Positions 8,353-63,733 of a DNA stretch of 64,000 nt are shown here, piece by piece (within the stretch, counting starts at the first letter, position 1; each line of letters opens with the position of its first letter). The notes under the pieces were generated by a model. That model was given only the letters and a program-made list of their open reading frames with translations, was not told the DNA's origin and made no database searches. Source of the stretch: Sinohyriopsis cumingii (Eukaryota; Mollusca; Bivalvia; Unionida; Unionidae); contig CM068830.1 in NCBI GenBank assembly GCA_028554795.2, forward strand, positions 49,238,355 through 49,302,354, read 5' to 3'. A program made the position numbers and the translations under genes.

Positions 8353-8354
8353 TG

Positions 8355-8625
8355 GTGTAAGGTACTGTACAACAAAAATGTTCCAGGAATACTAATAAGG
8401 GTGTAGGGTACTGTACAACAAAAATGTTCCAGGAATACTAATAAGGGTGTAGGGTACTGTACAACAAAAATGTTCCAGGAATACTAATAAGGGTGTAAGG
8501 TACTGTACAACAAAAATGTTCCAGGAATACTAATAAGGGTGTAGGGTACTGTACAACAAAAATGTTCCAGGAATACTAATAAGGGTGCAAGGTACTGTAC
8601 AACAAAAATGTTCCAAGAATAATGC
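8355..8625. repeat. 46-bp minisatellite, about six copies
   Basis: The word ggtactgtac recurs at 8361, 8407, 8453, 8499, 8545 and 8591, exactly 46 bp apart. Copies are nearly identical, with g/a changes in the gtgtagg spacer, so expansion was recent. Confidence 0.97.
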
Positions 8626-8943
8626 ATTTTAATTCAGGTTATTAATTTCAAATGCAATTCTTGTTTTCTCCGGAGGAACTTATTTCATTTCTTTCTCAAA
8701 AAAGAGTAAATATATAAGAAAACATATGTAACAAATAAAATCAGTGTCATAAATTAATTAACTGTTCATTTACGTTCATTTACGTTTCATAATACAGATT
8801 ATACTATCATACCACCACGTTTAAGATGCGTCAACATTATTCATATTTCTTTTCCTTTATCCCTTTTGCCATTTTAATATAAAGCTAGTGACGTTTAATC
8901 AAATGTCAAAGGGAAGGGTATGCAATGTATAAAATAATGTAAC

Positions 8944-8980
<37 letters not shown>

Positions 8981-10700
8981 TGTTGCATTATTATTATTAT
9001 TATTATTATTACTATCCAAGAACTGTTGTTATCTATCATAAGGGGTGACACTTAAATCTCAACTCAGGGAATAAGAAATAGAAAAGTTTGTACAGCTCAG
9101 AATGGTCTCTGTAGAATAACAAATATATTTCAATTGCTTGCCAGTTGAAAGTTTATATTCTGGTCGTGTGAACTAATAAATGGTTGCCAAGCCCCAACAG
9201 TAAATAATCTTAAGAACAAGAATGGGTGAGGGGAGAAGAAGGGAGAGCAATAACGCTCACCACCATTTCAGCCGACATTGTATGTTTTATTACTGCACAG
9301 TCACCGATTCCGTTGACAACAAAAATTATATATTAGATACACGTTTCAAGTATATAAGGCTGTTGTTCCCAACCCATTCATAGCCAAGAGGGCAATATAC
9401 CCTTTTGACAATCATATATAAGAATTGTCTAACATGGACAAGGAAACGTAGGAACTGTATGAAGGCAGTACAGTTCAACGAATAAGCTAAAATTTTATAG
9501 GCTTGCTCTCGTATCTCTGAATGTATCAATCTTGAAATGATCTATTTAATTTATTGGGTAAAATTGTCTTTTTTCCTTGTTGTTTAATAATTTTATTTGG
9601 TGGCGATGACTTTGTCTTCTCTCCTCCCCCAAAGCTGGGCAAGCCATTATCCTGTAAAGTGTATTCAATTATTTTTTTAATGTATACACCATGTTTATTA
9701 CTTTCTTTATTAATAGGCATACGATTATTTTGTATGACAATCACCCAACGAGGTTGGTGCGTATACACCGGACCCATGCAAAAATATTAACAGTAGCGAA
9801 GATAATGATCGTTCCGTATTCTTCGTGCATATTTGAAGCAATTATTGTTCCTTTCAAACAATCTAGTTTTTATGCGTTCTTTATCCTGTATATGTTTGAT
9901 GAATTCTTCCTTAAGAAATTGACAGAAAATCTCAATTATTCATGGCAACGCCATTGATTTTTCTTTAACCATATTGCCATGTCCTCAATGCCATTAAGTC
10001 AAACTACTGAAGAAAATTTCGTTAAGGCAATAATTTGCAGTCATTATCAAACATAATTATTAACCCTGAAAGGTTATTATACGTAATTTAATTTTAGCAA
10101 AATTCAGCTGGCTTCAGTATTTGCTGTAATGATGTATGTCTCAATCACTTGAGATGTTGGCTTCCGATATGAGATCCAGAGCATATTGTCTATCTATTAG
10201 ACTCTGCCTATCATCAGACCAGATTTTATTATTTTGATTTTTCATTCGTTTTCGAAGGCTTTCCTCAAACTATTGGAGCTGAAAACACATGGTGTTTTCA
10301 AAATCCATCTGAAATACTGAATTGAATTAGTATTATTGTAAACACGATGAAAGAAGCCATTGAGCCTTGCTCTGGTTTCTAAGTCTTTAAGCAGACAAAC
10401 AAAAATTGGAAATTCAATGTAGAGCATTATATATATGTAAGATCTTTATAAAAGATAGTCCATGACAACACGTGATACAGAAAAATCTATAAAAGAATAT
10501 TACAATAACGCATAGATATTAAACCAAAAACATACATAGTATATGAATTCTATCTCAGCGTAAGTAACAACATAACAACACGTGTAAATCAATATGTTCA
10601 TTAAATGTGTGCATATTTTCTTGATGACATCCAGCCAGAGGATTTTATCCCATATTCTTGAGACAATTGTCTTAAATTCCACCATACCAATTTTCACTGC
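8626..10700. other. Host intergenic sequence with a self-complementary ATT/AAT microsatellite
   Basis: An (AAT)n run near 8,948-8,980 is followed by (ATT)n to about 9,011, which could form a hairpin. Other frames are short and not conserved-looking. The last ~200 bases lie downstream of the Ro60 stop and probably hold its 3' UTR. No clear AATAAA was assigned. Confidence 0.5.
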
Positions 10701-12173
10701 TTACGCTTGCTCAAGAATAAACCTGTTCATGACTTCAATAGCCCCCGAATCAAATCCAACGATATCCAACATGTTAGGGTCATCCGGATCAGCGATGCTG
10801 AATCCGTTTGAGGACATGCCCACCACGATCAACTTGGCATTGTAGATCTCGCTTTTTGTTCTGTAGTCCTGAATGGCCTTGAAGGGATGGACTTTCCCAT
10901 ACCACGTCTCATTGTCTGTGTAGACAATGAAAACATCAAATTTCTTTTTATTTTCCATTGCATACAGCATGGGCAGAGCACAGTCAGTACCACCAAAAGG
11001 TATCTTGGATGATTTCTCAATGACCTCATTAAGGGTGTCTTTCTTTGTAATTGGAATAGGACGAAGTTCATGTGAGAAGGCAACAACCTCGCAATGTTCT
11101 TCAGTTCGAAGGGTAACCATCATCATGGCTGATGCAGCATCGCGGCAGGTGAGGCTTTCCGTTCCCATGCATGGTACACTCATGGACCCACTAACATCTA
11201 TAGCCAGCAAATACCGCTTTCCAGTCGGTTTAACAGCTTTAAAGGCTAAGTAAAAAGCACTGTCAAGACCAGACAACACCTTTTCATTAGGAGTCCACTT
11301 CATGTGTCCCTTGTCACCATGTCCCTTTTTATATTGATTCAAAGCCACAAGAACATTGAAGGGATGGACTCTGGCGTTCTTCAGTGAATCTTCCTCATTC
11401 AGTTTTATTACAATTGGTTGTTCGTACTCCGATCCAGCATCAAGAAGACCCATGGATGTAATCTTTCCAAGATTACGGATCATTGCAGTCATTGGCATCC
11501 TCTTCAAAAGGGCTTCCCAAACCGCTTTAGACTTCAAGAGCGTGGTCGGAACATGCTCTCGGACAAGCTTGTACTGTTCAATCAGTTGTATCATCGTCGT
11601 CTCATCTGTACATTTTCTTGCTCTTTCCGTTGCTTCCAAGAATGCAAGGATTTGCTGCTGATTTTCATCATTCACAAGTTCACCCTGCAACTTCTTCGCT
11701 GCCTCAAGTCCTTTGATAACAAACCTGGTGATGAATTTCAAGCAATCATTTTTCGGTTTGATGTGTGACAGACGAAGCAAGTCTTTGTGTGACCACTTTT
11801 CACGTTTTTTGTACTTTGTGATGAGCAAGGCCAATACCATTGGTTTTTCTTCTGCAAGTTCTTCGTACCAGTTGCTGATGGCTCTTCTGTGTGCTCTTCC
11901 CCATCCGGTCCCATTGCTCTCACTTTCAGCATATTTGACGAACATAAAAAGATGGGTGGGAATTCTGCAGACTTCATTCAGGCATTCGTAAGCTGCTTTC
12001 TTGGTTTCCTGATCATTGGATCTTGCACATATGGCCAAGGCAAATAGGGTTGGTCCCTGCTTTGCAGCTCTTCCTTCAAAGCTTATTTCTCGTATCAATG
12101 TAACAATTTCTTTTCCTCTCCCCTCAGAAATCAACCTGAAGAACAAAAATAGTGAAATTAGAATTTCCAGAAC

Positions 12174-12250
<77 letters not shown>

Positions 12251-13627
12251 TCATATTATCGGATGTTTACTCCACTCCAAATTCATCTTTATTGTATACT
12301 GAGTAAGACAGATCTTGATTTCTATTTATATTTATATTTGGCGAAGTAAAAATGTTTCGTATCTTCTGTAACAGGATTTTTAAAATCTTGGGTATCTAGG
12401 TTGACTTGTGTTTAAAAACCAGTTTGGCTAAAATATGAGTTTTCATGTATTCTCAAACAGCTTCTACTGTCACCTGATGAACTCCCCATACAACTAAGTT
12501 GTCCATGCAAAATGTATGTCTGCTGAACAGCCAAAGATAGCTGACACTTCAATGTAGAGTTATAATTGGTTGGATGATCTTGGCAATGGCTCCAGTTTGA
12601 AATCCCTATTATTGGTACTAAAGATTATAATAAAGTATTTGTTGCGCTTCACTGAATCTCTTTAAACTGCTTAATTTTTAATCTGCCTGATGGAATATCC
12701 GATTAAATTATAAACTTGCCGTCTTCATCATTTTGACAACGAGAATGAACGCCATGATCCTGGGTTATCAAGTCGAATAATTATATAAGAATTACATGCT
12801 ACATAAATATTGCCATACAATTGTATTCGACATCTGATCTCTATTGTTTTGTGACTGCCTTTCCCGTGACGCAACAGTATGTGCAATAAGCTCTGTTTCT
12901 ACTTCTATGGTTCTTTGTTGGATTCGGTGGTTTCAGCACACACAGTGGTTTCTCATTATAACGTAGCTGATTAAACCGCTACGTCTCTTAAAAATACGGT
13001 CATGGTCATAAATCCCATATTATATTATTTTATTTTATCGTTGCTACGTAATCTGATTCAGTTCATTTTAATTGTGACAAAAGATAATGATCATAATATA
13101 AGATTATATCATTAAGTATACCCGGTTAAAATATTTTGTTGGAATATCTCGCAGTATAAGGTTCGTTAATTCCTAATACATGTCATTTTTCTGACTCCCA
13201 AGAACAACCTTATAAAGAGGAAGCACTCACCACGATACGCTAGTCTGAGTTCTCCTGTGGGTCATCAAATTATCTCTAACTCAAAGACAAACCACCTTAC
13301 TAAAACATTGACAAAGAGTCCCTTATATGGGTTATCTGAATGTATATAACTAAAATACAAGTACCGATCAAAGCACTTTGCATTTTCTCGCTTTAGCTGC
13401 TGGTCGGAAGCCGTATAGGTACCTCCTTCGCATCCCATGAACAGAAAGCGCCGGGCCCGCTGCATGTCATCAACCTGAAAAATCCAGCCTCCAAATGCAT
13501 TTTTAACTTGCTTGCGGTGAATCTGCAACTTTTGACTTTGTTCTGGACCACGCCTTCTTGTAGGCGGCCTGTACTGGTAGGCATCATCGTCCTCAGGTTC
13601 TATGTCTCTTGACAGTAAACTTCCCAT
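10701..13627 (-). CDS. RO60: Ro60-like TROVE/vWA RNA-binding protein, two coding exons
   Basis: Coding exon 1 is 13627-13365 and exon 2 is 12135-10701, giving 565 codons. The donor reads gatcg/gtacttg and the acceptor ttgttcttcag/gttga; the joined frame is continuous. Ro60 is a ring-shaped cytoplasmic/nuclear protein that binds Y RNAs and misfolded small RNAs. The TROVE region (about residues 45-390) shows GGWIFQVDDM, EGGTY, LFALAICAR, VCRIPTHLF and WSHKDLLRLSHIKP. The vWA domain has a complete MIDAS: DVSGSMS near residue 401, a GGTDC threonine and TDNE. The C-terminus has the family's IADPDDPNMLDIVGFD. An in-frame TAA lies directly before the ATG and a candidate 5' UTR acceptor near 13,647, so the start is well fixed. 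The N-terminus is longer than human Ro60, Arg-rich, and begins MGSLLS, an N-myristoylation-type motif. Confidence 0.95.
12174..12248. repeat. (TA)n microsatellite in the Ro60 intron
   Basis: About 37 TA units about 40 bases upstream (in transcript sense) of the Ro60 exon 2 acceptor. A branch-point-like ctaat lies between it and the polypyrimidine stretch. Reading through it gives a false Ile-Tyr N-terminus to exon 2. Confidence 0.97.
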
Positions 13628-48344: not shown

Positions 48345-48540
48345 GAACTGACCTGTCGTAGATGAAAACGTTCGTAGCAAATCGGTCTGCCTTATACGGG
48401 TACTTTCATCACCTATCGGTCTGTCATAAGCGGACACTTTCATCACAAATAGTCCTGTCATAGACGGACACTTTCATCATAAATCGGTCTGTCATAAATG
48501 GACACTTTCATCACAAATCGGTCTGTCATAGACGGAAGTA
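48345..48540. repeat. ~34-bp minisatellite bordering the element
   Basis: Unit aaatcggtctgtcatagacg plus gacactttcatcac, about five copies, the first ones diverged. Unit length and sequence differ from the array starting at 48,554. I place the boundary between host and element close to the change, but it could also be part of the element's terminal repeat. Confidence 0.85.
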
Positions 48541-48553
48541 GTAAGTAGGGATA

Positions 48554-48730
48554 CATTACGTACAATGGAAATTAGCATTACAGAGACCCCTGGGTCAGAT
48601 TACGTACAATGGAAATTTAACATGGCGAAAAATCGTGGGTCAGATTACGTACAAGGGGAATTAACATGGGAATAAATCGTGGGTCATTTTACGTACAAGG
48701 GGAATTTAACATGGGATTTTTTTGTTAATA
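48554..48730. repeat. 44/45-bp subterminal repeats of the element
   Basis: tacgtacaa words recur at spacing 44, 45 and 44 (units starting 48,554, 48,598, 48,643 and 48,687) with aacatgg and cgtgggtca modules. They are followed by a T-rich and (AAATTT)n palindromic tract to about 48,770. Subterminal repeats of this kind are common inside Polinton terminal inverted repeats, but the partner repeat is outside the window. Confidence 0.8.
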
Positions 48731-48820
48731 TGGGTTTTTTTTTTTTTTTAAATTTAAATTTAAATTTAAAAAAGGGGTAGGCAATTGAAAAAAGTCATTC
48801 TCTTTTCGAGAAATATGGCT

Positions 48821-48836
48821 GGCCCTGAAAAGGGCC
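48821..48836 (-). terminator. Histone-type mRNA 3' stem-loop (minus-strand gene)
   Basis: On the minus strand: ggccct, loop tttc, agggcc, a perfect 6-bp stem with a 4-base loop. It is preceded by cccaaa and followed by agcca, one change from the canonical accca. A purine-rich gaaaagaga lies about 14 bases beyond the stem, where the histone downstream element that pairs with U7 snRNA is found. It begins 24 nt after the stop codon of the 77-codon gene. Confidence 0.88.
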
Positions 48837-48860
48837 TTTGGGTTTATGTTAATGTATCCA

Positions 48861-49094
48861 TTAACATAAAGGGAACCGCATTGGTCTTCTTCTTGTCCTT
48901 AGGCTGCGTCTCACTGTTGGCCCGTAAATCAGGACTCCTTTGAGGCACCCTTGTCTTTCTACGTAGATCCTACGTATCCACAGACTGGTGTTTGTCCTGT
49001 GGACAACGGTCCACTTGGATCGGACATACATGGGTATGTCCGTCCGGAACATCATTGAAGACACAAGCGTATAAGATTGCACATCGGTCCACAT
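48861..49094 (-). CDS. Small basic protein of unknown function, histone-type 3' end
   Basis: 77 codons, not recognised. The C-terminal third is Arg-rich (RRSLRTRRRPMRF), compatible with nucleic acid binding. The start at 49,094 is the first ATG after a TATA box at 49,139-49,146 (minus strand TATAAATA), at the same distance seen for other element genes. The stop lies 24 nt before a histone-type stem-loop. It is divergently arranged with the Gln/Glu-rich gene at 49,314 and shares its promoter region. Support comes from promoter and 3'-end signals rather than protein similarity; it is not a core histone by sequence. It could also be a decayed gene. Confidence 0.5.
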   Translation of the reverse strand: MWTDVQSYTLVSSMMFRTDIPMYVRSKWTVVHRTNTSLWIRRIYVERQGCLKGVLIYGPTVRRSLRTRRRPMRFPLC

Positions 49095-49138
49095 CTTGAA
49101 GCGACGAGAACAGGTGAATCAATGCAGTGAACTGCGCT

Positions 49139-49265
49139 TATTTATAGGTAGAGGAAGGACTGAAACGGATTGAGTTCATTCACCAATCCGAACACGCGTT
49201 ACAAAATTCAGTCAGTCCGCATCCAATCCGAAGAGAGCAGTCTGTGACGTCACGTGGTCTATATA
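49139..49265. promoter_or_regulatory. Divergent promoter with CCAAT, CRE, E-box and two TATA boxes
   Basis: The leftward TATA is at 49,139-49,146 and the rightward TATATA at 49,260-49,265. Between them lie two ccaatccgaa motifs (CCAAT at 49,183 and 49,223), an inverted cggattg at about 49,166, a perfect TGACGTCA (49,245-49,252) and an overlapping CACGTG (49,251-49,256). CCAAT plus TATA plus a histone-type 3' end is the layout of replication-dependent histone genes. Confidence 0.75.
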
Positions 49266-49313
49266 GATTCGTTAGCGCTTGTGTGCAGTCAATCTATGCG
49301 ACAGTGATTCAAC

Positions 49314-49896
49314 ATGACGGAAACTCAGAAAACGATCCATTGGGGTGCACCAGCAGGGGAGACCGCCCAAGGGAACCCGGACTTACTTTCAGAAGAGGTG
49401 AATTGGGATTTTGTGGATTTTCTTACCTCGCAAGAATTTGTTCCGGAACCTTCGTTACCTTCTTCATTACCGCAAGTGGAGAATTTTAGACAGAGACAGA
49501 AAGAAGAATTGGAGAAATTTATACAACGACAAGAGGAAGCGGAACAAGCTTTTCTCCTACAGCAACAGCAGCAAGAAGAAGAGGTAAGAAAAAAAAAAAC
49601 AGCAACAACAGCAAGAAGAGGATGCAGCAAAGAAACAAGAGGGTGAAAATCAAACGGTCACGGTACTGTTGGACATTTTAGCGGAGTTAAGAAGTCTGAA
49701 ACAAATGTATCAGACTTCTTTATTACGACCGAAGAGAATACGACCTTCCCGAGCTAAACACGTTAACCCTGTGACTAAGCCTACCGTACCACCCTTAGTG
49801 ATTTCAACCCAATCATCATCATCATCAACATTACGCAGTCCAGAAGTAGGTCTTGGCCGTGGCAAAGGCTTAAGGCAGTTAAAGTTGATTGCTTAA
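49314..49896 (+). pseudogene. Gln/Glu-rich early-type gene, interrupted by a frameshift
   Basis: Begins with MTETQKTIHWG, then an acidic/hydrophobic stretch (EEVNWDFVDFLTSQEF) resembling an activation-type segment. A Gln/Glu-rich coiled-coil-like region (about residues 60-95) follows. The frame changes at an 11-A run near 49,589-49,599: the first frame ends at 49,646, and the downstream frame, also Gln/Glu-rich and then containing a TVTVLLDILAELRSLKQMY helix and a basic RPKRIRPSRAKH, ends at 49,896. Continuity of composition on both sides argues for one gene with a 1-base slip in the A run, either a mutation, a sequencing error or programmed slippage. The stop is 25 nt before a histone-type stem-loop. 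Function unknown. Confidence 0.65.
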
Positions 49897-49921
49897 ACTC
49901 ACCCCTGCACCAAAATAAAAA

Positions 49922-49937
49922 GGCCCTTTTCAGGGCC
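49922..49937 (+). terminator. Histone-type mRNA 3' stem-loop (plus-strand gene)
   Basis: ggccct, loop tttc, agggcc, followed by the exact accca flank. A purine-rich gaaaagagat at 49,951-49,960 lies about 13 bases after the stem, where the U7-binding histone downstream element is expected. An AATAAA at 49,914-49,919 directly precedes the stem, so conventional polyadenylation may serve as a second route. The ~45 bp from stem to downstream element is nearly identical to the minus-strand copy at 48,793-48,836. Confidence 0.92.
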
Positions 49938-50099
49938 ACCCACATTTCTCGAAAAGAGATAGCCTTTCAATTTGCCAATAACTCAAAAAAAATAGTTAAC
50001 AGCCCATTTTACCCTATAGTACGTGTCTTTGTATGAGTGCGTGAGTGTACGTTCTTATTTTAAAATCAAAACTCAAAGACACTTACCTTATATCATTAA

Positions 50100-50189: not shown

Positions 50190-50660
50190 TTAGTCTCTCT
50201 GTTTTTTGAATTTCTTCACCGTCACACTCTTTTCCTCTTCTTCCTCCTCACTTTCTTCCCTTCTTCTTTTCTTCTCCTGTTTCTTTTTCTTCACCTGTCT
50301 GCTTTCTTCCTCTGAAAAATCCCTCTCTTCTTCCGAAGAATCCCTCTCTTCTTCTGAAGAATTTCTCTTTTCTTCTGACTCCTCTTCTTTCTTTTTTGGG
50401 CAATCTGGAGACCAATGTCCTTTTTCTTTACAATAATAACAGGTATCTTGACTTTTGTCTTTTTTAGCCCCTGTTTTTGTTCTTTTTTGACGGTCTGGAC
50501 ACTCTGAAGACCAATGCCCTTTCTTCTGACAGATATAGCAAGTATCTTGACTTTTATCTCGAAAGGAAGGAGAGTAGTCCGTCGGCTGGTCTGAAGAGAA
50601 TTTTCTAATGACCCCTCGCAAAGCTCTGACGAAACGTTCGATTTGGTTAGTCTCTTCCAT
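50190..50660 (-). CDS. Two-CCHC zinc-knuckle protein with charged tail
   Basis: 156 codons from the ATG at 50,660. The upstream in-frame ATG at 50,708 lies only about 7 bp from the TATA box and is unlikely to be in the mRNA. Two CX2CX4HX4C knuckles (CYICQKKGHWSSEC and CYYCKEKGHWSPDC) are the retroviral nucleocapsid/CNBP type that binds single-stranded nucleic acid. The tail has three near-identical SSEEERD-type repeats (CK2-like Ser-Glu sites), then a Lys/Arg-rich stretch alternating with a Glu run. It is divergent from the polymerase gene with 134 bp between the starts, suggesting co-expression early. Role in genome replication or packaging is an inference. Confidence 0.85.
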   Translation of the reverse strand: MEETNQIERFVRALRGVIRKFSSDQPTDYSPSFRDKSQDTCYICQKKGHWSSECPDRQKRTKTGAKKDKSQDTCYYCKEKGHWSPDCPKKKEEESEEKRNSSEEERDSSEEERDFSEEESRQVKKKKQEKKRRREESEEEEEEKSVTVKKFKKQRD

Positions 50661-50714
50661 CGTTCTGCTCGGCTTGAGAGTGAAATGAATAGTGAAAGGA
50701 CAAGACACACACCC

Positions 50715-50794: not shown

Positions 50795-53700
50795 ATGAAA
50801 CGATCCTATTCATTCGAGAAGAAAGAAGAAGAAGAAGAAAGTAAGAGGCAGAAACGTGATCTATCGCCTCGTACCAGAGCTGAAAACTTGGCACAAATTC
50901 ATGCCAGTGATTTTGAAGAGGACATGAGTGAACCAGAAACCGAACCCTCTAAACCAAGTTCGTCACCCTTAGTCAACCCTGAAAAATACTATTCCATTCG
51001 AGAGACGGAAAAGCGCTCCTCTAGAAAATTTAGAACCACGGCTTACACCTACACAGTGAATTTTAAAGATTTCAAGGCTGACGTACGATTGGAGAAAGCA
51101 GAAGGGTTTATCACCGAGATGTGGGATTCTTTACTCACCTCACTCAAGCGACAATGTCAACCCAAAGAAGACGATCGCTTGACACTATCCATAGATCACG
51201 ACAGCTTGAAATCCCCTGTTTGGATCGAGTTTAGCAGACCCGCAGAACTAACCCCTTCCAAAGTCATGGACAAGATTCAACACGTACAACAATCTAATGA
51301 TCAGTTTGACATCACCGATGGTAAAGCCACACTGAAAATGGCCCACGTCTATCCTCCTCAAGGGACTGGACGCAAAAGGATGTTATTGGTGGACGATCTT
51401 CGCAACACCAAAAAGAGTCTCGTCCGAATTAACAACCCTCATGACCAGATGTGTTTAGCCCGTGCCATTGTGGTGGGACGAACCTATGCCAACAAGAACG
51501 ACACGGTAGAATGGAAAAGAACCTGGAACACTATTCAACGTTCCTATCGAGCCAAACAACGAAACGAAGCAGAACTCCTGTTGCAACAAGCTGGCCTGTC
51601 CAAAGACACACCCTGTGGCATTCCTGAGATGCAAAAATTGCAAGATGTCCTAGCTCCACGATACACCTTGAAAGTGCACCCTCAAGAAATGCGCGGACCT
51701 CTGTTGTTTCGAGGCCAAGATTTTAAGGACGGAAAATACATTCATGTTTATTATCACGATGACCATTTCGATACCATTACCACCATCACCGGATTCCTGG
51801 GATACGGCTATTATTGTGAGAAATGTGATTATGGTTATAACAATCGAGAGCAACACAAGCATTGTGGATTGAAATGCTCAGGATGTTTGGCCTCTCCACC
51901 CTGTCTGAGCGAAGAACCAGTGCCTTGTTCAACTTGTCTGCGCACGTTTGTCAGCCCTACCTGCTACCAACAACATTTGAAAACACAAGGTTCACAGAAG
52001 AAATGTGCTTGTCAACTCCTGAGATTGTGCCCTACCTGTGGACAAGGTATATGTACCAATACTGCCAAGGCACACGTATGTCGAGGAAAGAAAAAATGTC
52101 ACATTTGTCACCACATCGTGGACTTGGAACATCAATGTTACGTGCAAAAATACCAACCCCCACCAGAGAAAGAGGACAGTTACAAGAAGAAAGGCAATTT
52201 CATCTTTTTCGATTTCGAATGCATGCAAGAGACCGGCATTCACATTCCTAATTTCTGCGTGGCTCATCGAGCGTGCGAGAAGTGCATTCAAGAACCTATC
52301 TTCAGTCATTGCCCTCACTGCAGCAAGATTCCTGGAGGACGTGAAAAAATCTTTCGGGGACCGAACACGCTAGCCGATTTCGCTCGATGGGTCTTAGACC
52401 CCATCGACAAGACGTGGAGCCAAGAGGACATCGAACGTTACGGAGATTGTCATCGTCATGCCACGGTGATGGCTCACAATTTCTCCGGATACGATGGACA
52501 GTTTCTTTTGAGGTACTATACGGAACATGGCACCGAGCGTCCTAAAGTGACTTTGAACGGAGCCAAAATCATTTTCATGCAAGTGGGACAAGTACAGTTT
52601 AAAGATTCGATGAGCTATTTGGCCATGCCTTTGAGTCGAATGCCTAAAACGTTTGGAATGACAGAAATGGCTAAAGGTTATTTTCCTCACTTTTTCAATA
52701 CGGAAGCCAATCAACACGCCGTTCTACCCCATTTGCCTGAGGCTCACTATTACGACCCCGACAACATGCGTACAGAACAACGAGAAGCTTTCTACGCTTG
52801 GTACCAGGCTCACGCCTCCGACCCTTTCGACTTTCAGGAAGAAATGCTAAAGTATTGTCGTTCTGACGTGGACATTTTACGGCGTTGCTGTGGAACATTT
52901 CGAGAACTGTTCATGGAACACGGAGGGGTCGATCCTTTGAAAGAAGCTTGCACCATTGCCAAAGCGTGTTCCTTAGTGTATCGACAACGATTCATGCCTG
53001 AAAACACCGTGGCTGTCATCAGTCCTCAAACGACCCACTATGTCAAACGTCAATACTCGGTCAAAGCCCTACGTTGGTTACATTACTTGTGCGACAAGGA
53101 AGAGAAATGGATTCAGCATGCCCGCAACGGAGGAGGCGAAAAGACCATCGGAACGTATTCGGTCGATGGCTGGGACTTAGAAAACCCCAAGATCGTGTAC
53201 GGGTTTAACGGTTGCTTATTTCACGGATGTCCCGTCTGTTACCCTGACCGTAGCACTAAAAATCAGTTTTTACAACGAACCATGGAAGACTTGTACCAGG
53301 ACACATGTCAGCGGCGTCTAAAGTTGGAACAGGAAGGATACCAAGTGGTGGAAATGTGGAAACACGAGTACGATCACCGTATGAAAACCGATCCCGAGTT
53401 TAAACGCCTCGTGGAAAGTTACCAGTTCATGGACCCGTTGAACCCGAGGGATAGTTTGTACGGAGGAAAGACCAATGCCACCTGTTTGCTGTACCAAGCC
53501 GACGAAGAGAAAGGAGAAGAAATCAAATACTTGGACGTGTGTTCGCTGTATCCCTACGTGTGCAAATATTGTCGCTTTCCTGTAGGGCACCCGCAATTGC
53601 TGACGGAACACATCGACCTGAAAAATATTCGACAATACGAAGGTTTGATCAAGTATAAAGTTTTGCCTCCCACGAACCTATACCATCCCGTGTTACCTCA

Positions 53701-54850
53701 CCATTGTCAAGGCAAACTGATGTTTCCCTTGTGCCGTACTTGTGCCGAAACGTGCAACCAAGACCAGCCTTGCCATCACACCCAGGAAGAACGTGCCTTG
53801 ACGGGAACCTGGGTCAGCGTAGAATTGTTCAAAGCTCTGGACATGGGATATCAACAGTTAGAAGTGTACGAAATTTGCCACTTTCCCAAGACACAACAAT
53901 ACCACAAGGGTGATCCCAGTCAGAAAGGCATTTTCGCTGACTACGTGGATGCCTTTTTGAAACTGAAGCAAGAAGCCAGCGGCTATCCGTCCTGGTGTCA
54001 CACTCCCGAAGACCAAATACAATTCAAAGAGAAATACTATGAACAAGAAGGAATCTCTTTAGACCACATCGAGAAAAACGAAGGCAGGCGATCGTTTGCC
54101 AAAGTGATGTTAAATTGCTTGTGGGGTAAAATGGCACAACGACCGTGTTTACCCAAGACGGAATATTTGACAGAACCTTCCCGCTACTTCCAGATGATTC
54201 ACGACAAAACCAAATACATGAAACACGTGGACGTCGTTCGAGAGGATTTGATCTTGGTCAATTACGAAGAAGATCTGGACTTTGTACAAGACGACCCTTT
54301 TGGAAATGTCATCATTGCGGCTTACGTGACAGCTCATGCTCGCTTAAAATTGTACGAAGCTTTAGAACTGTTAGAAGAACGCGTCCTGTACTTTGACACG
54401 GACAGTTGCATTTACATCCATCACCCGAGTCAACAGCACCCTGACATCGAAGGAGACCGTTTAGGAGCCTGGACAGACGAGCATCCCGACGACAAGATTC
54501 TAAGTTTCGTCAGTGGCGGTCCCAAAAATTACGGCTACGAATACCGTGACAAACAAGGAGAAGTGCACACGACGTGCAAAGTGAAAGGACTGACTCTGAA
54601 TTATCGTACCAGTCGAGTGGTCAACTTTGGGGTATTGAAAGAAGCCTTGCAATCGGGAGAGGATGGAAACTTTAAAGTGACCACTCACCAACCGAACAAG
54701 ATTGTACGTTTACCCACTCACCACATCGTCAGTCGGCCCTTGGAAAAAGTCTATCAAATCGTGTACCAGAAGCGAGTGCGACTTCCCAATCATTTCACCT
54801 TACCGGATGGACACGTCGGTATCGGTCTGTATATAAAAAAGGAACCCTAA
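50795..54850 (+). CDS. polB: Protein-primed family B DNA polymerase (Polinton/adintovirus type)
   Basis: 1351 codons, uninterrupted. It replicates the linear element with a protein primer. After a Lys/Glu-rich N-terminus, residues ~205-325 contain INNPHDQMCLARAIVVG and a downstream HDDHFDTI, a pattern like the Cys and His boxes of OTU-type cysteine proteases. A Cys/His-rich zinc region spans about 338-448. Exonuclease motifs are Exo I FFDFE (~470), Exo II HNFSGYDGQF (~560) and Exo III YCRSDVDIL (~686); an extra CX2C pair lies at about 494-509. Polymerase motifs are A DVCSLYP (~912), B KVMLNCLWGK (~1104) and C YFDTDS (~1199). The length fits metazoan Polinton polymerases. The ATG follows TATAAAT by 54 bp. 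Codon use matches the other element genes. Confidence 0.97.
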   Translation: MKRSYSFEKKEEEEESKRQKRDLSPRTRAENLAQIHASDFEEDMSEPETEPSKPSSSPLVNPEKYYSIRETEKRSSRKFRTTAYTYTVNFKDFKADVRLEKAEGFITEMWDSLLTSLKRQCQPKEDDRLTLSIDHDSLKSPVWIEFSRPAELTPSKVMDKIQHVQQSNDQFDITDGKATLKMAHVYPPQGTGRKRMLLVDDLRNTKKSLVRINNPHDQMCLARAIVVGRTYANKNDTVEWKRTWNTIQRSYRAKQRNEAELLLQQAGLSKDTPCGIPEMQKLQDVLAPRYTLKVHPQEMRGPLLFRGQDFKDGKYIHVYYHDDHFDTITTITGFLGYGYYCEKCDYGYNNREQHKHCGLKCSGCLASPPCLSEEPVPCSTCLRTFVSPTCYQQHLKTQGSQKKCACQLLRLCPTCGQGICTNTAKAHVCRGKKKCHICHHIVDLEHQCYVQKYQPPPEKEDSYKKKGNFIFFDFECMQETGIHIPNFCVAHRACEKCIQEPIFSHCPHCSKIPGGREKIFRGPNTLADFARWVLDPIDKTWSQEDIERYGDCHRHATVMAHNFSGYDGQFLLRYYTEHGTERPKVTLNGAKIIFMQVGQVQFKDSMSYLAMPLSRMPKTFGMTEMAKGYFPHFFNTEANQHAVLPHLPEAHYYDPDNMRTEQREAFYAWYQAHASDPFDFQEEMLKYCRSDVDILRRCCGTFRELFMEHGGVDPLKEACTIAKACSLVYRQRFMPENTVAVISPQTTHYVKRQYSVKALRWLHYLCDKEEKWIQHARNGGGEKTIGTYSVDGWDLENPKIVYGFNGCLFHGCPVCYPDRSTKNQFLQRTMEDLYQDTCQRRLKLEQEGYQVVEMWKHEYDHRMKTDPEFKRLVESYQFMDPLNPRDSLYGGKTNATCLLYQADEEKGEEIKYLDVCSLYPYVCKYCRFPVGHPQLLTEHIDLKNIRQYEGLIKYKVLPPTNLYHPVLPHHCQGKLMFPLCRTCAETCNQDQPCHHTQEERALTGTWVSVELFKALDMGYQQLEVYEICHFPKTQQYHKGDPSQKGIFADYVDAFLKLKQEASGYPSWCHTPEDQIQFKEKYYEQEGISLDHIEKNEGRRSFAKVMLNCLWGKMAQRPCLPKTEYLTEPSRYFQMIHDKTKYMKHVDVVREDLILVNYEEDLDFVQDDPFGNVIIAAYVTAHARLKLYEALELLEERVLYFDTDSCIYIHHPSQQHPDIEGDRLGAWTDEHPDDKILSFVSGGPKNYGYEYRDKQGEVHTTCKVKGLTLNYRTSRVVNFGVLKEALQSGEDGNFKVTTHQPNKIVRLPTHHIVSRPLEKVYQIVYQKRVRLPNHFTLPDGHVGIGLYIKKEP
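54832..54840 (+). promoter_or_regulatory. TATA box overlapping the polymerase 3' end
   Basis: TATAAAAAA just before the polymerase stop and 64 bp before the next ATG at 54,896, so the downstream gene appears to have its own promoter inside the polymerase gene. Confidence 0.65.
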
Positions 54851-56581: not shown

Positions 56582-56613
56582 CAATAAACGTGTTCTGAAA
56601 AAAGTATATAAAA
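56582..56613 (+). promoter_or_regulatory. Poly(A) signal followed by TATA box
   Basis: AATAAA within 56,582-56,588 ends the accessory gene group. TATAAAA at 56,607-56,613 lies 52 bp before the packaging ATPase ATG. Confidence 0.7.
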
Positions 56614-56658
56614 ACTTGTCTTGTTTGTTTTCGTGTCACAAGTGACATTTCTCATACT

Positions 56659-57549
56659 ATGGCTAACTCTGCTGTCTCTGCTCCCTCTCCCTCTACTGTC
56701 AAAGTCATCGACGAACACTTAGATCGTGCCAGTTGGGAGGCTTTGTATCTTCGCCATCCCTTTAACATGCTCATTGCTGGACCTAGCGGTTCAGGCAAAA
56801 CCGAATTCGTCAAACGTTTGATCGAACATAAACATCATTTGATCGATTGACCACCTCAACGGATCGTGTGGTGTTACAAAGAGTGGCAATCGGCGTACAG
56901 CCTCTTGCGAGAAAGTCAAGGCGATTCCATCGTGTTTGTGGAAGGAATTCCTAAAGAAGACGACGGCATCGTCTCTGACTCCCGTCAAACCCATTTGGTC
57001 ATTTTCGACGACATGTTAGGAGAAGACGAAGAAGAAATTAAATTGTGGTTCACGCGCAAAGGGCATCACCGTAATGCCAGTGTCGTTTACATCACCCAAA
57101 ATTTGTTTCAACAAAGTAAAGCCCATCGCACCATCAGTCTCAATGCGCATTACGTGGTCTTGTTTAAAAGCCCTCGAGATAAATCGCAAGTGCAAGTCTT
57201 AGCCAAACAGTTAGGAACGCCTTGGCTGACTCAGGCGTACGACGATGCCACTCAAACTCCACACGCCTATTTACTCGTCGATTTGAAACCTACGACCCCC
57301 GAGGATTTACCCACTTGTTTCACCACTGGTGCCAAGACGGAGGGCCTGTCCTGTACACGTCTCCGTCCTCGACTTAATTTCACTCCCCATAAAAAAATCT
57401 GTAAAAACCTCAGACCCTTTTTCCTCTGTCTCACACAACGTCAACATGACGTCCCTTCAGTCGCATCTTCCCGTCAAATTGATTCGTGCCTTGTATGGCA
57501 TCAGTCGAGAAAAAAATCCACAAACACGAGCTCGTGTCTTAGAAGCTAG
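56659..57549 (+). pseudogene. A32/FtsK-type genome-packaging ATPase, broken
   Basis: Powers translocation of DNA into capsids. Walker A GPSGSGKT is at residues ~41-48, an in-frame TGA at codon 64 (56,848-56,850), then in the same frame VWCYKEWQ, Walker B LVIFDDM (~113), an arginine-containing KGHHRNASVVYITQNLF segment (sensor motif region) and LLVDLKPTTPEDL. Recognisable family sequence ends near 57,300; the continuing frame to 57,549 has an atypical tail that runs into the next gene, while an alternative frame ends at 57,377, so a second break near a C run is possible. The stop separates Walker A from Walker B, so no active enzyme is expected unless the stop is a sequence error. TATA at 56,607 supports the start. 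Confidence 0.88.
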
Positions 57550-58886: not shown

Positions 58887-59549
58887 ATGGAGGGACGAAA
58901 ACTAGCTTTAGTGCCTTACAAACGATGGATGGAATACCATCGGTGGCAAGAACAACGCACCCCGCATTTACCTCCCAATCCCAACTTGAGCGAGATGTCC
59001 CAGTTACAACACGAATTGCAGTCCTTGATGGATCGCCAAGATTTGTCCGAAACAGAAAAATCGCAAAAGTACGGTCAACTCTTGCAACGACTGCAACTCT
59101 TTCACCAGAAAGCTTTAGACGAAACAGCTCTACCCACTCTGAAAGATTTTAAGAGCTTGATGAAAAGTCCAGCACCATCACCAGTACCAGTACCATCACT
59201 ACCAGTGACCAAGACAGAAAAAGGAGAAGAAGAAGAAGAAGGGTTTCAAACTCCACCAGAAAAAGTACGCAAGTTAACAACACCACCTACCTCCAGAATT
59301 GGATGGATTAAAAAGATGATGGCCACCCCTTCTTCATCACAAGAGAAAAAGAAAGTGAAGACAGAAGTGAAGACAGAAGTGAAACAAGAACCGATATCCC
59401 CCGCTCAGACATCCTCCTCTTCGACACCTATTGCCGGTCGCACACGCAAAGCATTGCAATCCAAGAAAATACCCCAAGAGAAAAAAGTAGCATCCTCCAA
59501 GAGTGGGTGCCTTATTAACACAAAAAATAACAAATGGAAACAGTCTTAG
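58887..59549 (+). CDS. Pro/Lys-rich protein with N-terminal LVPYKRW motif
   Basis: 220 codons. It starts KLALVPYKRWMEYHR, a short motif I associate with a conserved but uncharacterised gene next to the integrase in Polintons. A Gln/Leu-rich helical stretch (about residues 40-80, probable coiled coil) follows, then a low-complexity Pro-Val, Glu-run and Lys/Glu-Thr region with repeated KVKTEVKTEVK (SUMO-site-like). gataaaaa near 58,833 is a weak TATA. The last 16 bp overlap the integrase start. Function unknown. Confidence 0.75.
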   Translation: MEGRKLALVPYKRWMEYHRWQEQRTPHLPPNPNLSEMSQLQHELQSLMDRQDLSETEKSQKYGQLLQRLQLFHQKALDETALPTLKDFKSLMKSPAPSPVPVPSLPVTKTEKGEEEEEGFQTPPEKVRKLTTPPTSRIGWIKKMMATPSSSQEKKKVKTEVKTEVKQEPISPAQTSSSSTPIAGRTRKALQSKKIPQEKKVASSKSGCLINTKNNKWKQS

Positions 59550-60643
59550 CCAGCATTTACTACGATCCCTCGCATCCTGCAGGTTACGCAGGAGTTCAAA
59601 AATTGTATAGTGCTGCCAAAACTCGACTGAAAAGTCTCCGTTTACCTCAAGTGCAACGATGGTTACAAGAACAAGCTACCTACACTTTACACAAACCCAT
59701 TCCACGCAAGTTTGCCAGAAGTCGCACCCGAGTGGAAGGCATCGATCATCAATGGCAAGCCGATTTAGCCGATGTCTCTCATTTGGCCAGCTACAATCGT
59801 GGCTACAAATATTTGTTTTGTGTCATCGACGTCTTTTCCAAATTTGCCTGGGTCGTGCCCTTGACTTCCAAATCGAGCAGCGAGTTAGTGCGACCCCTGC
59901 AACGGGTGTTGAAACAATGCGGTCGTCACCCTCTTCGATGGCAAACGGACAAAGGCACCGAATTTCTGAACCAAGCTTTCCAAAAAGAATTAAAGAAACG
60001 TGACATTCATTTTTTTACCACTGAGAATCCCGAAACCAAAGCCAGCATCGTGGAACGTTTTCAACGCACTTTGAAAGAACGCATGTGGAAATATTTTACG
60101 CATCACCACACTCTGAAGTACATCGACATCTTACCGCATCTGGTGCAAGCGTAGAACCAATCTTACCATCGAAGCATCGGACGTGCCCCGCAAGACGTGA
60201 CTCCCGACAACGAAGTGTTGGTGTTTGAGCGCCTGTTTGGTACGTCCCCAACGAGGGCTGTCCCCAAGAAAAGTGGAGAGTTGGCCGTAGGAGATTGGGT
60301 GCGCATTGGCAAAACCAAACGCACTTTCGACAAAGGTTACTTACCTAACTGGACGACCGAATTGTTTCGCGTCACTGGACGAGTGCATGGCCGTCATCAT
60401 GCCGTCTATAAATTGGAAGACATGAACGGAGAAGTGCTCAAAGGAACGTTTTATTTGCCCGAGTTACAACGTGTCACCAAAAAAGAAGACGACGTGTACG
60501 ACATCGAAAGCATTCTCGAACGCAGAACCCGTAAAGTGAGCAAACGACGTGTCAAAGAAGTCAAAGTACGTTGGAAAGGATATCCACCCAGTTTTGATTC
60601 TTGGATCGACGCTTCGCAAGTCATCGACTATAAAAAGAAGTGA
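59534..60643 (+). pseudogene. Retrovirus-type integrase with chromodomain, broken by one stop
   Basis: Catalyses insertion of the linear element into host DNA. It starts with the Polinton-typical YYDPSHPAGYAGVQKLY and a YTLHKP segment. The RNase H-like core has Asp77 (ADLADV), Asp139 (QTDKGTEF) and Glu174 (IVERFQRTLKE), with 34 residues between the last two. An in-frame TAG lies at codon 207 (60,152-60,154), inside the core's C-terminal part. The same frame then continues through SYHRSIGRAP, an SH3-like region (AVGDWVRI) and a C-terminal chromodomain (VYDIESILERR ... VKVRWKGYPPSFDSWID). All catalytic residues are upstream of the stop. The chromodomain could target marked chromatin. One stop in an otherwise well-kept frame indicates recent loss or sequence error. 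Confidence 0.93.
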
Positions 60644-60648
60644 CCATC

Positions 60649-61065
60649 ATGCCCTTTCACACAGACGCAGCTACGTCGACCACTGCTTCACCTAGTTCTT
60701 CTGTGCAAGATTTACAAAAACAACCCTTGTGGGTGTGGTGTGGAGAACGTGTGCCTAAAACGCAAATCGTCTTTTTCTGCCAAATCTTCGTGGTGTATCG
60801 TGTCATCGGGGCAGCCATTGCCAATTTGAGTTTGCAACAAGGAGACAAACAATTGTGGACTATTTTATTGAGCAGTTGCATCGGTTACCTGCTTCCCAAT
60901 CCCTCCCTGAAATTCTCCTCGAACGGGAACCACGGGAACCTTGTGTCCAGTGCCAGTGTCAGTCACCACTCCAACAACAATCACAACCAGAACCTCATTT
61001 TGGGCGGAGACACGCATCTGACGTCCACTAACCCCTCGGACAGCCACAGAACTCTGGAATTATGA
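60649..61065 (+). CDS. Two-TM membrane protein of Polintons
   Basis: 138 codons from ATG 60,649. Two hydrophobic segments, IVFFCQIFVVYRVIGAAIAN and LWTILLSSCIGYLLP, flank a short loop, with the conserved-looking LSSCIGYLLPNPSLK ending. The C-terminal third is Ser/Asn/His-rich and hydrophilic. I recognise the two-helix LGYLLPNPS pattern as a small membrane protein common in metazoan Polinton/adintovirus loci; a viroporin-like or virion-membrane role is inference. A TATAAAAA at 60,629 is only about 20 bp upstream. The stop overlaps the penton gene ATG by 4 bp. Confidence 0.8.
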   Translation: MPFHTDAATSTTASPSSSVQDLQKQPLWVWCGERVPKTQIVFFCQIFVVYRVIGAAIANLSLQQGDKQLWTILLSSCIGYLLPNPSLKFSSNGNHGNLVSSASVSHHSNNNHNQNLILGGDTHLTSTNPSDSHRTLEL

Positions 61066-61982
61066 GTCACGAAAACCAATTTTACTTAACCTTACCCAGT
61101 GACAGTTCCATGGAGGTGTTTCCCCACAACAAGTTGTGCTGTTACACGGCCAAATTACCTCAAGCCATCCCGTTAGATCACGAAGCCCATTGGGAAGTGG
61201 CTTTGGTAGAAATGATTCACCCTACACAAATCCAAAACATCACTGAAACGCAAAACACTTTTGAGGTCGAAATCCTGAACGAACAATTACAAAACTAAAT
61301 GAATGACATCGGTGGGTTTTCAGGGATAACAAGACCAGCCAACAATCCAGCCTTCAAAATCTACACCTTGAAAATTCCGGCAGGGTTTTATTTTAGTGGC
61401 CAACATTTGGTGGACACTATTGCGGACAGGTTCGAGTTAGCCTTTGGCAAAGCCCTGAACAAACAAACTAACAAACGTGTCACCCTGGAGTACCATAAAG
61501 TGGCTCGTCGCTTACTGATGAAATTTCAGGATACCCAAACGTTGTCCATCAGTTTCAATCGTGACTTGTTTGATCTTTTAGGTGGAGACACAAAAATGGC
61601 TCCAAATTTTAATCCGAAGATCAACAGCAATACGGAATTTTACAAGTTTTTTCGATTCCCTGTAGAACTGAACCAAGGACTGAATTTGATGTTCGTGTGC
61701 TCCGATGTGGTGGAGTATAACGTGGTGGGACACACCTCTGTGCCGTTACTGCGTGTCATTCCTTTCAAAGTGGATAGTACCACGACCAGTGACCAGGAAG
61801 GTGGAAACACCTATCACGTTCACCGGGAATTTGTGCATCCTCATTATTTGCCTGTCAGCAAGTCGTATTTGGACACGGTCAACATTGCTATAAAAGGAGA
61901 TTTAGGACAAAATATTCCATTCACCAAAGGAAAAGTCACGGTGAATATCCATTTTCGAAAACGGTTCTCTCACGACTCGTAA
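61062..61982 (+). pseudogene. Penton (minor capsid) protein, one in-frame stop
   Basis: In Polintons the single jelly-roll minor capsid protein forms the pentameric vertices. The first part (FYLTLPSDSS, WEVALVEMIHP) is the family's conserved start. An in-frame TAA at 61,296-61,298 follows 78 codons. The same frame continues at once with ATG and about 227 codons containing the middle (YTLKIPAGFYFSG, RFELAF) and the C-terminal strands (PLLRVIPF, REFVHPHYLPV, TVNIAIKGDLGQ). Because an ATG follows the stop directly, re-initiation could give a C-terminal product, but the jelly-roll would lack its first strands. Order penton, small basic protein, major capsid protein is typical. Confidence 0.9.
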
Positions 61983-61985
61983 GTC

Positions 61986-62402
61986 ATGTATCCAGTGTAT
62001 CGAGGGGTTGCTCGACAGCGAGGACACGGTTTAGGAGATATGTTAAAATCGGCCTTTCGTTCGGTGACCCCGGTGTTGAAACCGATGGTGACACGCGGAT
62101 TACACGCCTTGAAAGATGCGGCACTGACGCAAGGCAAAGAATTTCTCCAAAATGTCATCATCGACAAACAAAACCCTAAAGAAGCTTTCATGAGGGCAGG
62201 TAAAAATGTCTTGCTGCAAACGGGCAAAGACCTTTTGGGCCGACGAGACACACCTATAAATGCCCTGCACGCTACCGAGTCAGGCATTCAGCAAGGACAA
62301 GGCAGAAAGAGACGACGAAGAAAACACCCTTTCACCAGACTTCAAGCTAGAAAGGCCAAGAAAAGAAGAACCGTTCGAGACTTAGACGTTTTCGATTATT
62401 GA
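61986..62402 (+). CDS. Basic virion protein with Gly-rich N-terminus (pVI/pX-like)
   Basis: 138 codons, starting 3 bp after the penton stop. It begins MYPVYRGVARQRGHGLGDML, the YRG..RQRG.GLG pattern of a small protein found between penton and major capsid genes in Polintons and adintoviruses. An amphipathic helix (LKSAFRSVTPVLKPMV) and a long helical middle follow, then a C-terminal RKRRRRKHPF and KAKKRR tail suited to DNA binding or nuclear entry. Comparison with adenovirus pVI/pX is by position and composition. Its end lies just before the capsid gene. Confidence 0.8.
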   Translation: MYPVYRGVARQRGHGLGDMLKSAFRSVTPVLKPMVTRGLHALKDAALTQGKEFLQNVIIDKQNPKEAFMRAGKNVLLQTGKDLLGRRDTPINALHATESGIQQGQGRKRRRRKHPFTRLQARKAKKRRTVRDLDVFDY

Positions 62403-62416
62403 AACACAGAAAAAAA

Positions 62417-63733
62417 ATGATGCACCGAGAATCTTGCGCTTGTTCCAAGACGGAACTGGATCTGTTTGCCATGCCCCCCACCATGATGACGATGCAAGAA
62501 TCCCAGTGGGTGGAATTTCAGCCCGTCTCCTCACTGACCGATTCCGCTCCCATCGAGTTTGAAATCAAAGGACAGCCCGAAGATTACATCGATCTGAATA
62601 GCAGTTACTTGTACTTGAAAGTCAAAGTTCAAGATAAGACTGGAGGTGATATAGACACTGAGCCAGTAGCTCCCGTCAACAATTTCATGCATTCCTTGTT
62701 CAGTGGAGTGGACTTGTACTTGAACAACAAACTGGTCAGTAGCAGCATGGATACTTACCCTTATCGAGCGTACCTGGAAAATCTCTTGACGTACGGAATA
62801 GACGCCAAGAACACTCATCTCAATGCCTGTGTGCTATGGGAAGCTGACGAAGCAGGCCAGTTTGAAAATTTAGAAGCTGATGAAAAGAAAGACAACAATG
62901 AGGGATTTGTAGAACGAAGAAAGAGAATCATAGGACCCAAGAAAAGTTTAGAACTGATGGATCGTTTGCATTTGGACATGTGGTTGCAGGAAAAGTATTT
63001 GCTGAACTTGGTAGATGTCCGCCTGAGACTGAATCGGAGCAGTACCGCTTTCCATTTATTGGCTGATACTGACGATAATTACAAAACCAAAATCGAAGAA
63101 GCCAGACTCTACGTACGCCGCGTGGAAGTGTTACCTAAAGTGGGTAACGACATCAGTCAGACGTTGAGCAGAACGACCGCCAAGTATCCCATACGACGCG
63201 TGGAAGTGAAAACCTTCACCATTCCCAAGGGACAGCGATCCATGATCGAAGATCATCTGTTCCAAGGACAGTTACCCAAACGTTTGATCGTTGGTATCGT
63301 CGAGAATGAAGCCTTCAACGGAGCTATCAATAAAAATCCTTTCTACTTTCAACACTTTGGCGTGTCCAAAATCGAAGTCAGTCGCGATATCAAGACCTTG
63401 TGTACCCGACCTTTCGAACCTGACTTTACCAAGAAGAATTACTTGAGATCGTACTTGTCCTTGTACGAAGCCACCGGACAGTTAGGAACCAACACCAATC
63501 GCGGCATTACGTACGACGATTATGTAGGAGGCTATGCTTTGTGGGCTTTTGATTTCACTCCAGACCAAGGCATCAACGAGGGACATTTCCACCCTATAAA
63601 ATCCGGCCAGATTCGTGTGGAAATTCAGTTTGCAAACCGAGTCCCTGATGAAACGGTGAACGTCATGCTGTATGCAGAATTTGATAATACCATAGAAATC
63701 AACAGTTTGAGAGAAGTCATTCTAGATTACTAG
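62417..63733 (+). CDS. Major capsid protein, double jelly-roll
   Basis: 438 codons from ATG 62,417 (a second ATG is adjacent); intact. It forms the hexon-like capsomers. Recognisable features are the N-terminal WVEFQPVSSLTDSAPIEFEI, YIDLNSSYLYLKVKV, PVNNFMHSLFSGVDLYLNN (a hallmark of this family), YPYRAYLENLLTYG, then FTIPKGQRSMIEDHLFQGQLPKR and LRSYLSLYEATG, with YALWAFDFTPD near the C-terminus. The length is slightly shorter than many Polinton capsid proteins but complete in motifs. The frame has no stops, in contrast to its neighbours. Confidence 0.95.
   Translation: MMHRESCACSKTELDLFAMPPTMMTMQESQWVEFQPVSSLTDSAPIEFEIKGQPEDYIDLNSSYLYLKVKVQDKTGGDIDTEPVAPVNNFMHSLFSGVDLYLNNKLVSSSMDTYPYRAYLENLLTYGIDAKNTHLNACVLWEADEAGQFENLEADEKKDNNEGFVERRKRIIGPKKSLELMDRLHLDMWLQEKYLLNLVDVRLRLNRSSTAFHLLADTDDNYKTKIEEARLYVRRVEVLPKVGNDISQTLSRTTAKYPIRRVEVKTFTIPKGQRSMIEDHLFQGQLPKRLIVGIVENEAFNGAINKNPFYFQHFGVSKIEVSRDIKTLCTRPFEPDFTKKNYLRSYLSLYEATGQLGTNTNRGITYDDYVGGYALWAFDFTPDQGINEGHFHPIKSGQIRVEIQFANRVPDETVNVMLYAEFDNTIEINSLREVILDY

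Follow-up and report, generated by a model that had tools for sequence, protein, structure and literature searches.

Histone-type 3' end signals and histone promoter boxes on outer genes of a Maverick/Polinton family in Sinohyriopsis cumingii

The outermost genes of a Maverick/Polinton element in the genome of Sinohyriopsis cumingii carry sequence signals typical of replication-dependent histone genes. An active lineage of this element very probably expressed its five outer genes as replication-dependent histone-type mRNAs, processed by SLBP and U7 and free of poly(A), with those at the right end driven through a histone promoter box. In general, 3' ends of this type are regarded as all but exclusive to histone genes of the replication-dependent kind. 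The analysis was centered on a 64-kb stretch of DNA (hereafter the window; C7:49238355-49302354 in the 2.90-Gb genome G000), for which a preliminary description had proposed histone-type 3' ends on two genes of a Polinton-like element. That proposal gained support from Rfam scores, from related copies, from likeness to the host's own histone genes, from three further genes at the right end (R1, R2, and R3) and from the promoter boxes. What the sequence establishes is which elements are present, in what order, sense orientation and spacing, how closely they resemble those of host histone genes, and that coding is constrained in most of the genes; from this we infer SLBP/U7 processing, the absence of poly(A), timing in S phase and the identity of the factors.

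Since the element encodes a B-family DNA polymerase (PolB, PF03175), a chromodomain, and an integrase of the rve type, it was placed among the Mavericks/Polintons (and animal adintoviruses). A terminal inverted repeat (TIR) starting with AG was present together with PolB and RVE integrase. The element's length, about 18.9 kb, was taken from coordinates, the sequence read being the window, with the left end, and a neighboring locus (L029, C7:49303000-49306600), with the right end, which lie 645 bases apart. The left TIR (Table 1) was 86% identical to positions 2805-2478 of L029, in reverse orientation. GACGGA flanks both ends of the element (48531-48536 on the left and L029 2806-2811 on the right) as a candidate 6-bp target-site duplication, which is consistent but not proven, as the tandem repeat at the insertion site itself has GACGGA. 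This repeat, an array of ~34-bp units, lies on both sides of the element (window 48352-48536; L029 2806-2963) and marks the insertion site. For the capsid frames tested, neither Pfam nor NCBIfam gave a match and PDB sequences gave no convincing one, and frames homologous to the putative capsid block were found near the right ends of other copies. The frame at 56599-56850 contains a Walker-A-like AGPSGSGKTEF, and the ATPase frames tested had no convincing library match. At a distance from the element, the window also holds a Ro60-like gene (10701-12254, minus strand), a 517-amino acid ORF with TROVE and Ro60 vWA domains.

Table 1. Features of the left end and interior of the element (window positions).
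Feature	Position	Strand	Remarks
Histone-type stem-loop GGCCCT-TTTC-AGGGCC, after plus gene	49922..49937	+	Flank ACCCA; RF00032 41.8 bits over 49917-49962
Histone-type stem-loop GGCCCT-TTTC-AGGGCC, after minus-strand gene	48821..48836	-	Flank AGCCA; RF00032 33.9 bits over 48841-48796
Purine-rich, histone downstream element-like GAAAAGAGA	49951..49959	+	Begins 13 nt past stem
Purine-rich, histone downstream element-like GAAAAGAGA	48799..48807	-	Begins 13 nt past stem
minus77, small Arg-rich gene, 77 aa	48861..49094	-	Stop 24 nt upstream of stem
plus gene, about 190 aa in open-frame copies	49314..49896	+	Stop (49896) 25 nt upstream of stem
Bidirectional promoter region	49095..49313	.	TATA-type boxes in both directions, two CCAAT motifs and TGACGTCA at 49245; histone promoter box absent
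Left TIR	48537..48845	.	Begins AGTAGTAAG; outward histone hairpin forms inner edge
DNA polymerase B (PolB), organellar and viral type	50795..54850	+	PF03175, E 5e-40
Integrase core (rve)	59534..60154	+	PF00665, E 2e-13
Chromodomain frame after integrase	60155..60643	+	PF00385, E 1.8e-7
Putative capsid-gene block	61032..63733	+	Position and size only, from open frames
CCHC zinc-knuckle gene (contrast gene)	50190..50708	-	Lacks histone hairpin; past stop, ATTAAA at 32 nt and AATAAA at 84 nt

Probable relatives of the element in other species were seen at the protein level only. PolB had 480 relatives, and among the 120 listed the nearest named ones were in oysters, while one right-end protein had an 80% match over 64% of its length to a hypothetical protein of Sinanodonta woodiana. 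Short environmental contigs of 0.9-2.3 kb yielded 20 homologues of the plus gene, with identities of 58-95%. Queries of the viral_contigs collection with PolB alone, a PolB alignment, a plus-gene alignment, and two exact hairpin patterns returned no matches, nor did a query of the phage collection with the integrase.

At the left end, two hairpins had been reported beyond the stops of a divergent gene pair, 24-25 nt away, with flanks ACCCA and AGCCA and a purine-rich element ~13-14 nt further on; each of these details was recovered at the positions given in Table 1. The preliminary description had further likened them to the metazoan histone consensus. Searches with the Rfam model RF00032 (Histone3) bore this out on the plus strand (E 6e-9 for the 64-kb window) and very nearly so on the minus strand (E 1.4e-6), where the score fell 0.1 bit short of the gathering score of 34. 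All remaining Rfam matches in the 46-64 kb part of the window had E values of 3.8 or worse, and the other genes in the window showed neither a histone hairpin nor a histone promoter box. Since the two hairpins form an inverted pair of 49 nt, 90% complementary, they do not constitute two independent observations within the window alone. One other copy (L011, C6:10198200-10208199) is rearranged, such that PolB and CCHC pieces flank the divergent pair on both sides, an arrangement that recombination between the inverted hairpin repeats could have produced.

Neither protein had been taken for a histone, rightly so, as no Pfam match above cut-off, to histones or otherwise, was obtained for the plus gene (the piece at 49314-49646 and the L021 copy) or for minus77 (the L022 copy), and the same held for R1-R3. 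In the window copy, an A-run near 49588 (49588-49600) breaks the frame of the plus gene, which is open for 183-192 amino acids from a Met in five other copies (L011, L020, L021, L022, and L024). The structure predicted for one homologue of the plus protein (P0122) was a single 84-residue helix plus disorder, with a mean pLDDT of 66, a confidence too low to support a fold search.

At the right end, L029 holds three tandem genes, R1, R2, and R3, each followed by a histone-type hairpin (AGCCCTTTTCAGGGCT, AGCCCTTTTAAGGGCT, and GGCCCTTTTCAGGGCC, respectively), bringing the number of such genes on the element to five. Their stops precede the hairpins by 27, 26, and 22 nt, so that in all five genes the stop lies 22-27 nt before the stem and the hairpin is in sense orientation. 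The R3 hairpin scored 36.8 bits with RF00032; those of R1 and R2, in which an A-U basal pair replaces G-C, were below the Rfam cut-off in the RF00032 search of 10 loci. Two of the five hairpins (minus77 and R3) are held in the TIR and the other three lie outside it, while the 3' ends of R1 and R2 are near-identical duplicates (96% over 113 nt). The five hairpins are therefore not all independent, because minus77 and R3 share the TIR and R1 and R2 are duplicates.

Coding constraint was estimated from dN/dS, excluding pairs with very low or saturated dS. Ratios were 0.11 for minus77 (12 copies; 0.14 in a second estimate), 0.10 for R3B (three copies; 0.14 in a second estimate), 0.23 for R2, and 0.18 for R3A (one usable pair), and these values (0.10-0.23) indicate purifying selection on all four. 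Constraint was weak for R1 (0.55) and the plus gene (0.63-0.64).

Apart from the hairpins, the right-end genes have upstream sequences of histone type. Boxes like GATGTTTTCNNTCACGTCCGCGC, of the kind found in host histone promoters, occur upstream of R1, R2, and R3, and the sequence GATGTTTTCCTTCACGTCCGCGC upstream of R1 and R2 is one position off the box of host H2B and resembles that of H1. The 21-mer TTTCTTTTAGGTCCGCGCGTT upstream of R2 matches the host H4 promoter at every position; nine of 11 right ends have this exact 21-mer. With up to four mismatches allowed, the box occurred in three to six copies at every one of the 11 right ends, while none was found at 10 of 10 left-end loci or in the window, and 20 permuted boxes gave no hits in the four sequences tested. 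Box starts were 75-107 nt upstream of the ATG in R1, R2, R3, host H2B, and host H1 (taking the first ATG as the start of H1), with a further R3 copy at 144 nt. After the box, TATAAA follows in R2 and host H2B and TATA-like TTTAAG/TATAAG in R1/R3, and none was matched in host H1. The left pair has TATA, CCAAT, and TGACGTCA motifs instead of the box. Within L029 (401-2540), R1, R2, and R3 have promoter boxes in common yet encode differing proteins. The promoter box, which emerged when promoters were compared with those of the host unit, is a second, independent signal beside the hairpin. Its core, ACGTCCGC, resembles the HINFP motif.

The box also gives a measure of the size of the family. Exact matches numbered 31,228 genome-wide, host histone boxes included, with none for a reversed control. 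At three to four boxes per right end, this count would correspond, as a rough estimate, to ~8,000-10,000 right ends of this Polinton family. Boxes in the host histone arrays are estimated at about two hundred, from two in the one unit read and about 110 H4 matches.

Comparison with the host's histone 3' ends, as the preliminary description had suggested, showed agreement in stem, loop, spacing, and purine element. The host histone unit, read in one 8.4-kb stretch (L035) of a tandem array, contains H4, H2B, H2A, H1, and H3, and 114 H4 matches were found in the host genome. Each of the five genes had an RF00032 match of 35.0-39.4 bits, all over the cut-off. The element stem, GGCCCT/AGGGCC, is that of four of the five host histone genes, the host loop is TTTN, and GAAAAG lies 13-14 nt past the stem in five of five element genes and five of five host histone genes. 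Likeness between element and host 3' ends is limited to the 17-41 nt of the stem-loop and downstream element. The 3' flanks differ, being ACCC, AGCC, or ACGC in the element vs. ACAA, ATAC, ACAC, or ACTT in the host, a difference that speaks against recent copying from the array that the host has now. The canonical ACCCA, found on most element copies, has no counterpart in the host's own histone hairpins in L035. Searches for the host SLBP domain (PF15247, six frames) and U7 snRNA (RF00066) gave no matches, but the positive controls were equally silent, so that these negatives carry no weight.

The preliminary description had let its reading depend on related elements, and the hairpin proved to be present at the gene ends of all copies counted. 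When the host genome was searched with RF00032 (589,472 first-look candidates), the best 20 of 75 scored matches (L009-L028) were taken, and all 20 were ends of this element family as judged by protein, hairpin, or promoter-box content. No histone coding match was found in L001-L028, and contigs of host histone arrays were not among the 75 scored matches listed, although the single array unit read (L035) has five matches over the cut-off. In the count anchored on gene ends (L009-L029 and the window; after removal of two duplicate rows, and counting only matches that reached to within 25 residues of the protein end), 57 of 57 gene copies had the hairpin with at most two mismatches in 19 nt, 41 of them exact, 10 with one mismatch, and six with two; since the loci were picked as top RF00032 matches, this conservation is inflated. 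Eighteen of the 57 were the hairpins by which their own locus had been chosen, all exact, and the other 39 comprised 23 exact copies, 10 with one mismatch, and six with two. Among R1/R2 copies, which belong to the other hairpin class (n = 22), 15 were exact, three had one mismatch, and four had two. Conservation by hairpin class was discarded as evidence because the hairpin pattern was itself the criterion of selection. ORFs of at least 50 codons ended 13-36 nt before the hairpin in 43 of 50 cases, compared to 14-17% of random sites, the 50 being those hairpins with any stop 10-45 nt upstream (a slightly looser pattern gives 53).

Closely related copies were compared over the window and 16 of the 40 copies found by 1.2-kb DNA similarity, drawn from the 95-96% end. 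Across these 17 copies, the 32 stem-loop sites had no shared and three private changes, vs. 0.063 shared and 0.149 private changes per site between the hairpins. About two shared changes would be expected in the stem-loops where none was observed, which agrees, weakly, with conservation. When windows were ranked by conservation, the stem-loop came sixth of 141 for R1 and only 35th of 141 for R2. The flank varies among copies (ACCCA, AGCCA, or ACGCA). Pairing was intact in 66 of 66 cells of an alignment of the five element hairpins, one further copy (L017), and five host hairpins, with two pairs changed on both sides, one being the basal A-U change of R1/R2 and the other coming from host H1. 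Of 500 shuffles, seven reached the observed covariation score and 23 had as many pairs with changes on both sides; in further pair types the alignment was no better than shuffles, 236 of which reached its number.

These data bear on three other explanations. The hairpin could be a DNA element of the termini, serving recombination, replication, or packaging, its histone likeness being secondary. Its residence in the TIR at two of five genes would fit such a role, as would recombination between the inverted pair, to which the divergent pair of L011 with PolB pieces on either side may owe its arrangement. However, three of the five hairpins are outside the TIR, all five follow directly past a stop codon in sense orientation, a downstream element that would act at the RNA level is retained with its 13-14 nt spacing, and three of the genes have histone promoter boxes upstream; we consider this explanation very unlikely. 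It is slightly less probable still that pieces of host histone genes came in passively when genes were captured and are without function for the element. No histone coding was found in L001-L028, the proteins tested matched no histone family of Pfam, likeness stops at the edges of the functional core, and the element's flanks are not those of the host. The signals also recur on five genes, are retained in diverged copies, and include two base pairs with changes on both sides. In favor of passive capture are the identity of the 21-mer to the host H4 promoter, the near-identity of the H2B/H1 box, and the stem shared with four of five host histone genes.

The third explanation concerns the mRNA itself, and we give it the lowest probability of the three: transcripts might be mostly polyadenylated, with mixed 3' ends and a hairpin whose role is limited to stability or translation, or to that of a fallback. 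The AATAAA at 49,914, to which the preliminary description had drawn attention, does adjoin the plus hairpin, immediately 5' of the stem, in 14 of 17 closely related copies, so that use of poly(A) or mixed ends is possible on the plus gene; AATAAA also occurs 106 nt past the R2 stop and ATTAAA 206 nt past the R1 stop. Nevertheless, plus-gene copies L011, L020, L021, and L024 have no AATAAA in the 14 nt before the stem, and neither AATAAA nor ATTAAA is present within 260 nt past the stop of minus77 or R3. In the interior of the element, most genes other than the CCHC gene have neither signal within 260 nt of the stop.

If the outer set of two divergent left genes and three tandem right genes is expressed as histone-type mRNAs, as we favor, the stem-loop would be recognized by host SLBP and the purine element by U7 snRNP, and the pre-mRNA would be cut a few nucleotides past the stem, leaving an mRNA without poly(A). 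At the right end, a host histone promoter factor could bind the copied box and turn the genes on at G1/S. Transcription there would then follow the histone programme into S phase, when an element that replicates its DNA might benefit. Extending this, we lean, on balance, toward two classes of mRNA in the element, one of ordinary mRNAs, made from the genes for replication and particles, and one of histone-type mRNAs, made from the outer genes in S phase and not polyadenylated. The machinery of the histone locus body may be recruited through the copied boxes, which, at roughly a hundredfold the number of the host's own, would make the family a possible sink for histone-gene factors.

If this is true, a mobile virus-like element with both halves of the histone programme, box and 3' end, on non-histone genes would show how a virus can couple the expression of its genes to S phase while dispensing with poly(A) tails. 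The hairpins of the element, with their A-U basal pair and altered flank, would serve as natural, diverged test pieces for recognition by SLBP and U7. Since histone-type transcripts would escape poly(A)-selected RNA-seq, similar genes in other elements may have been overlooked. Among the papers listed in our literature search, none described 3' ends of histone type, or promoter boxes of histone genes, in Polintons/Mavericks.

Among systems already described, a bracovirus provides another gene of viral origin with an effect on how host histone genes are regulated. This viral histone H4 gene codes for a variant of the histone and suppresses the mRNA of host H4 (PMC12819152), whereas here histone control signals sit on non-histone genes. 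The right-end boxes have a possible parallel in the H4 promoter elements of mammals, at which HiNF-P recruits NPAT (PMC5706932); histone promoter elements there recruit S-phase activation, and the right-end boxes would do so too. In its PolB, integrase with adjoining chromodomain frame, AG-start TIR, candidate 6-bp target-site duplication, and ~18.9-kb length, the element is in common with Mavericks/Polintons and animal adintoviruses. With the 3' end of metazoan replication-dependent histone mRNAs (RF00032; SLBP/U7), its outer genes share the 6-bp stem, the UUUN loop, the purine element 13-14 nt on, and the short 3' UTR. They differ in that these features stand here on non-histone genes of a mobile element, that two of the five hairpins have A-U as their basal pair, and that the flanks are not those of the host.
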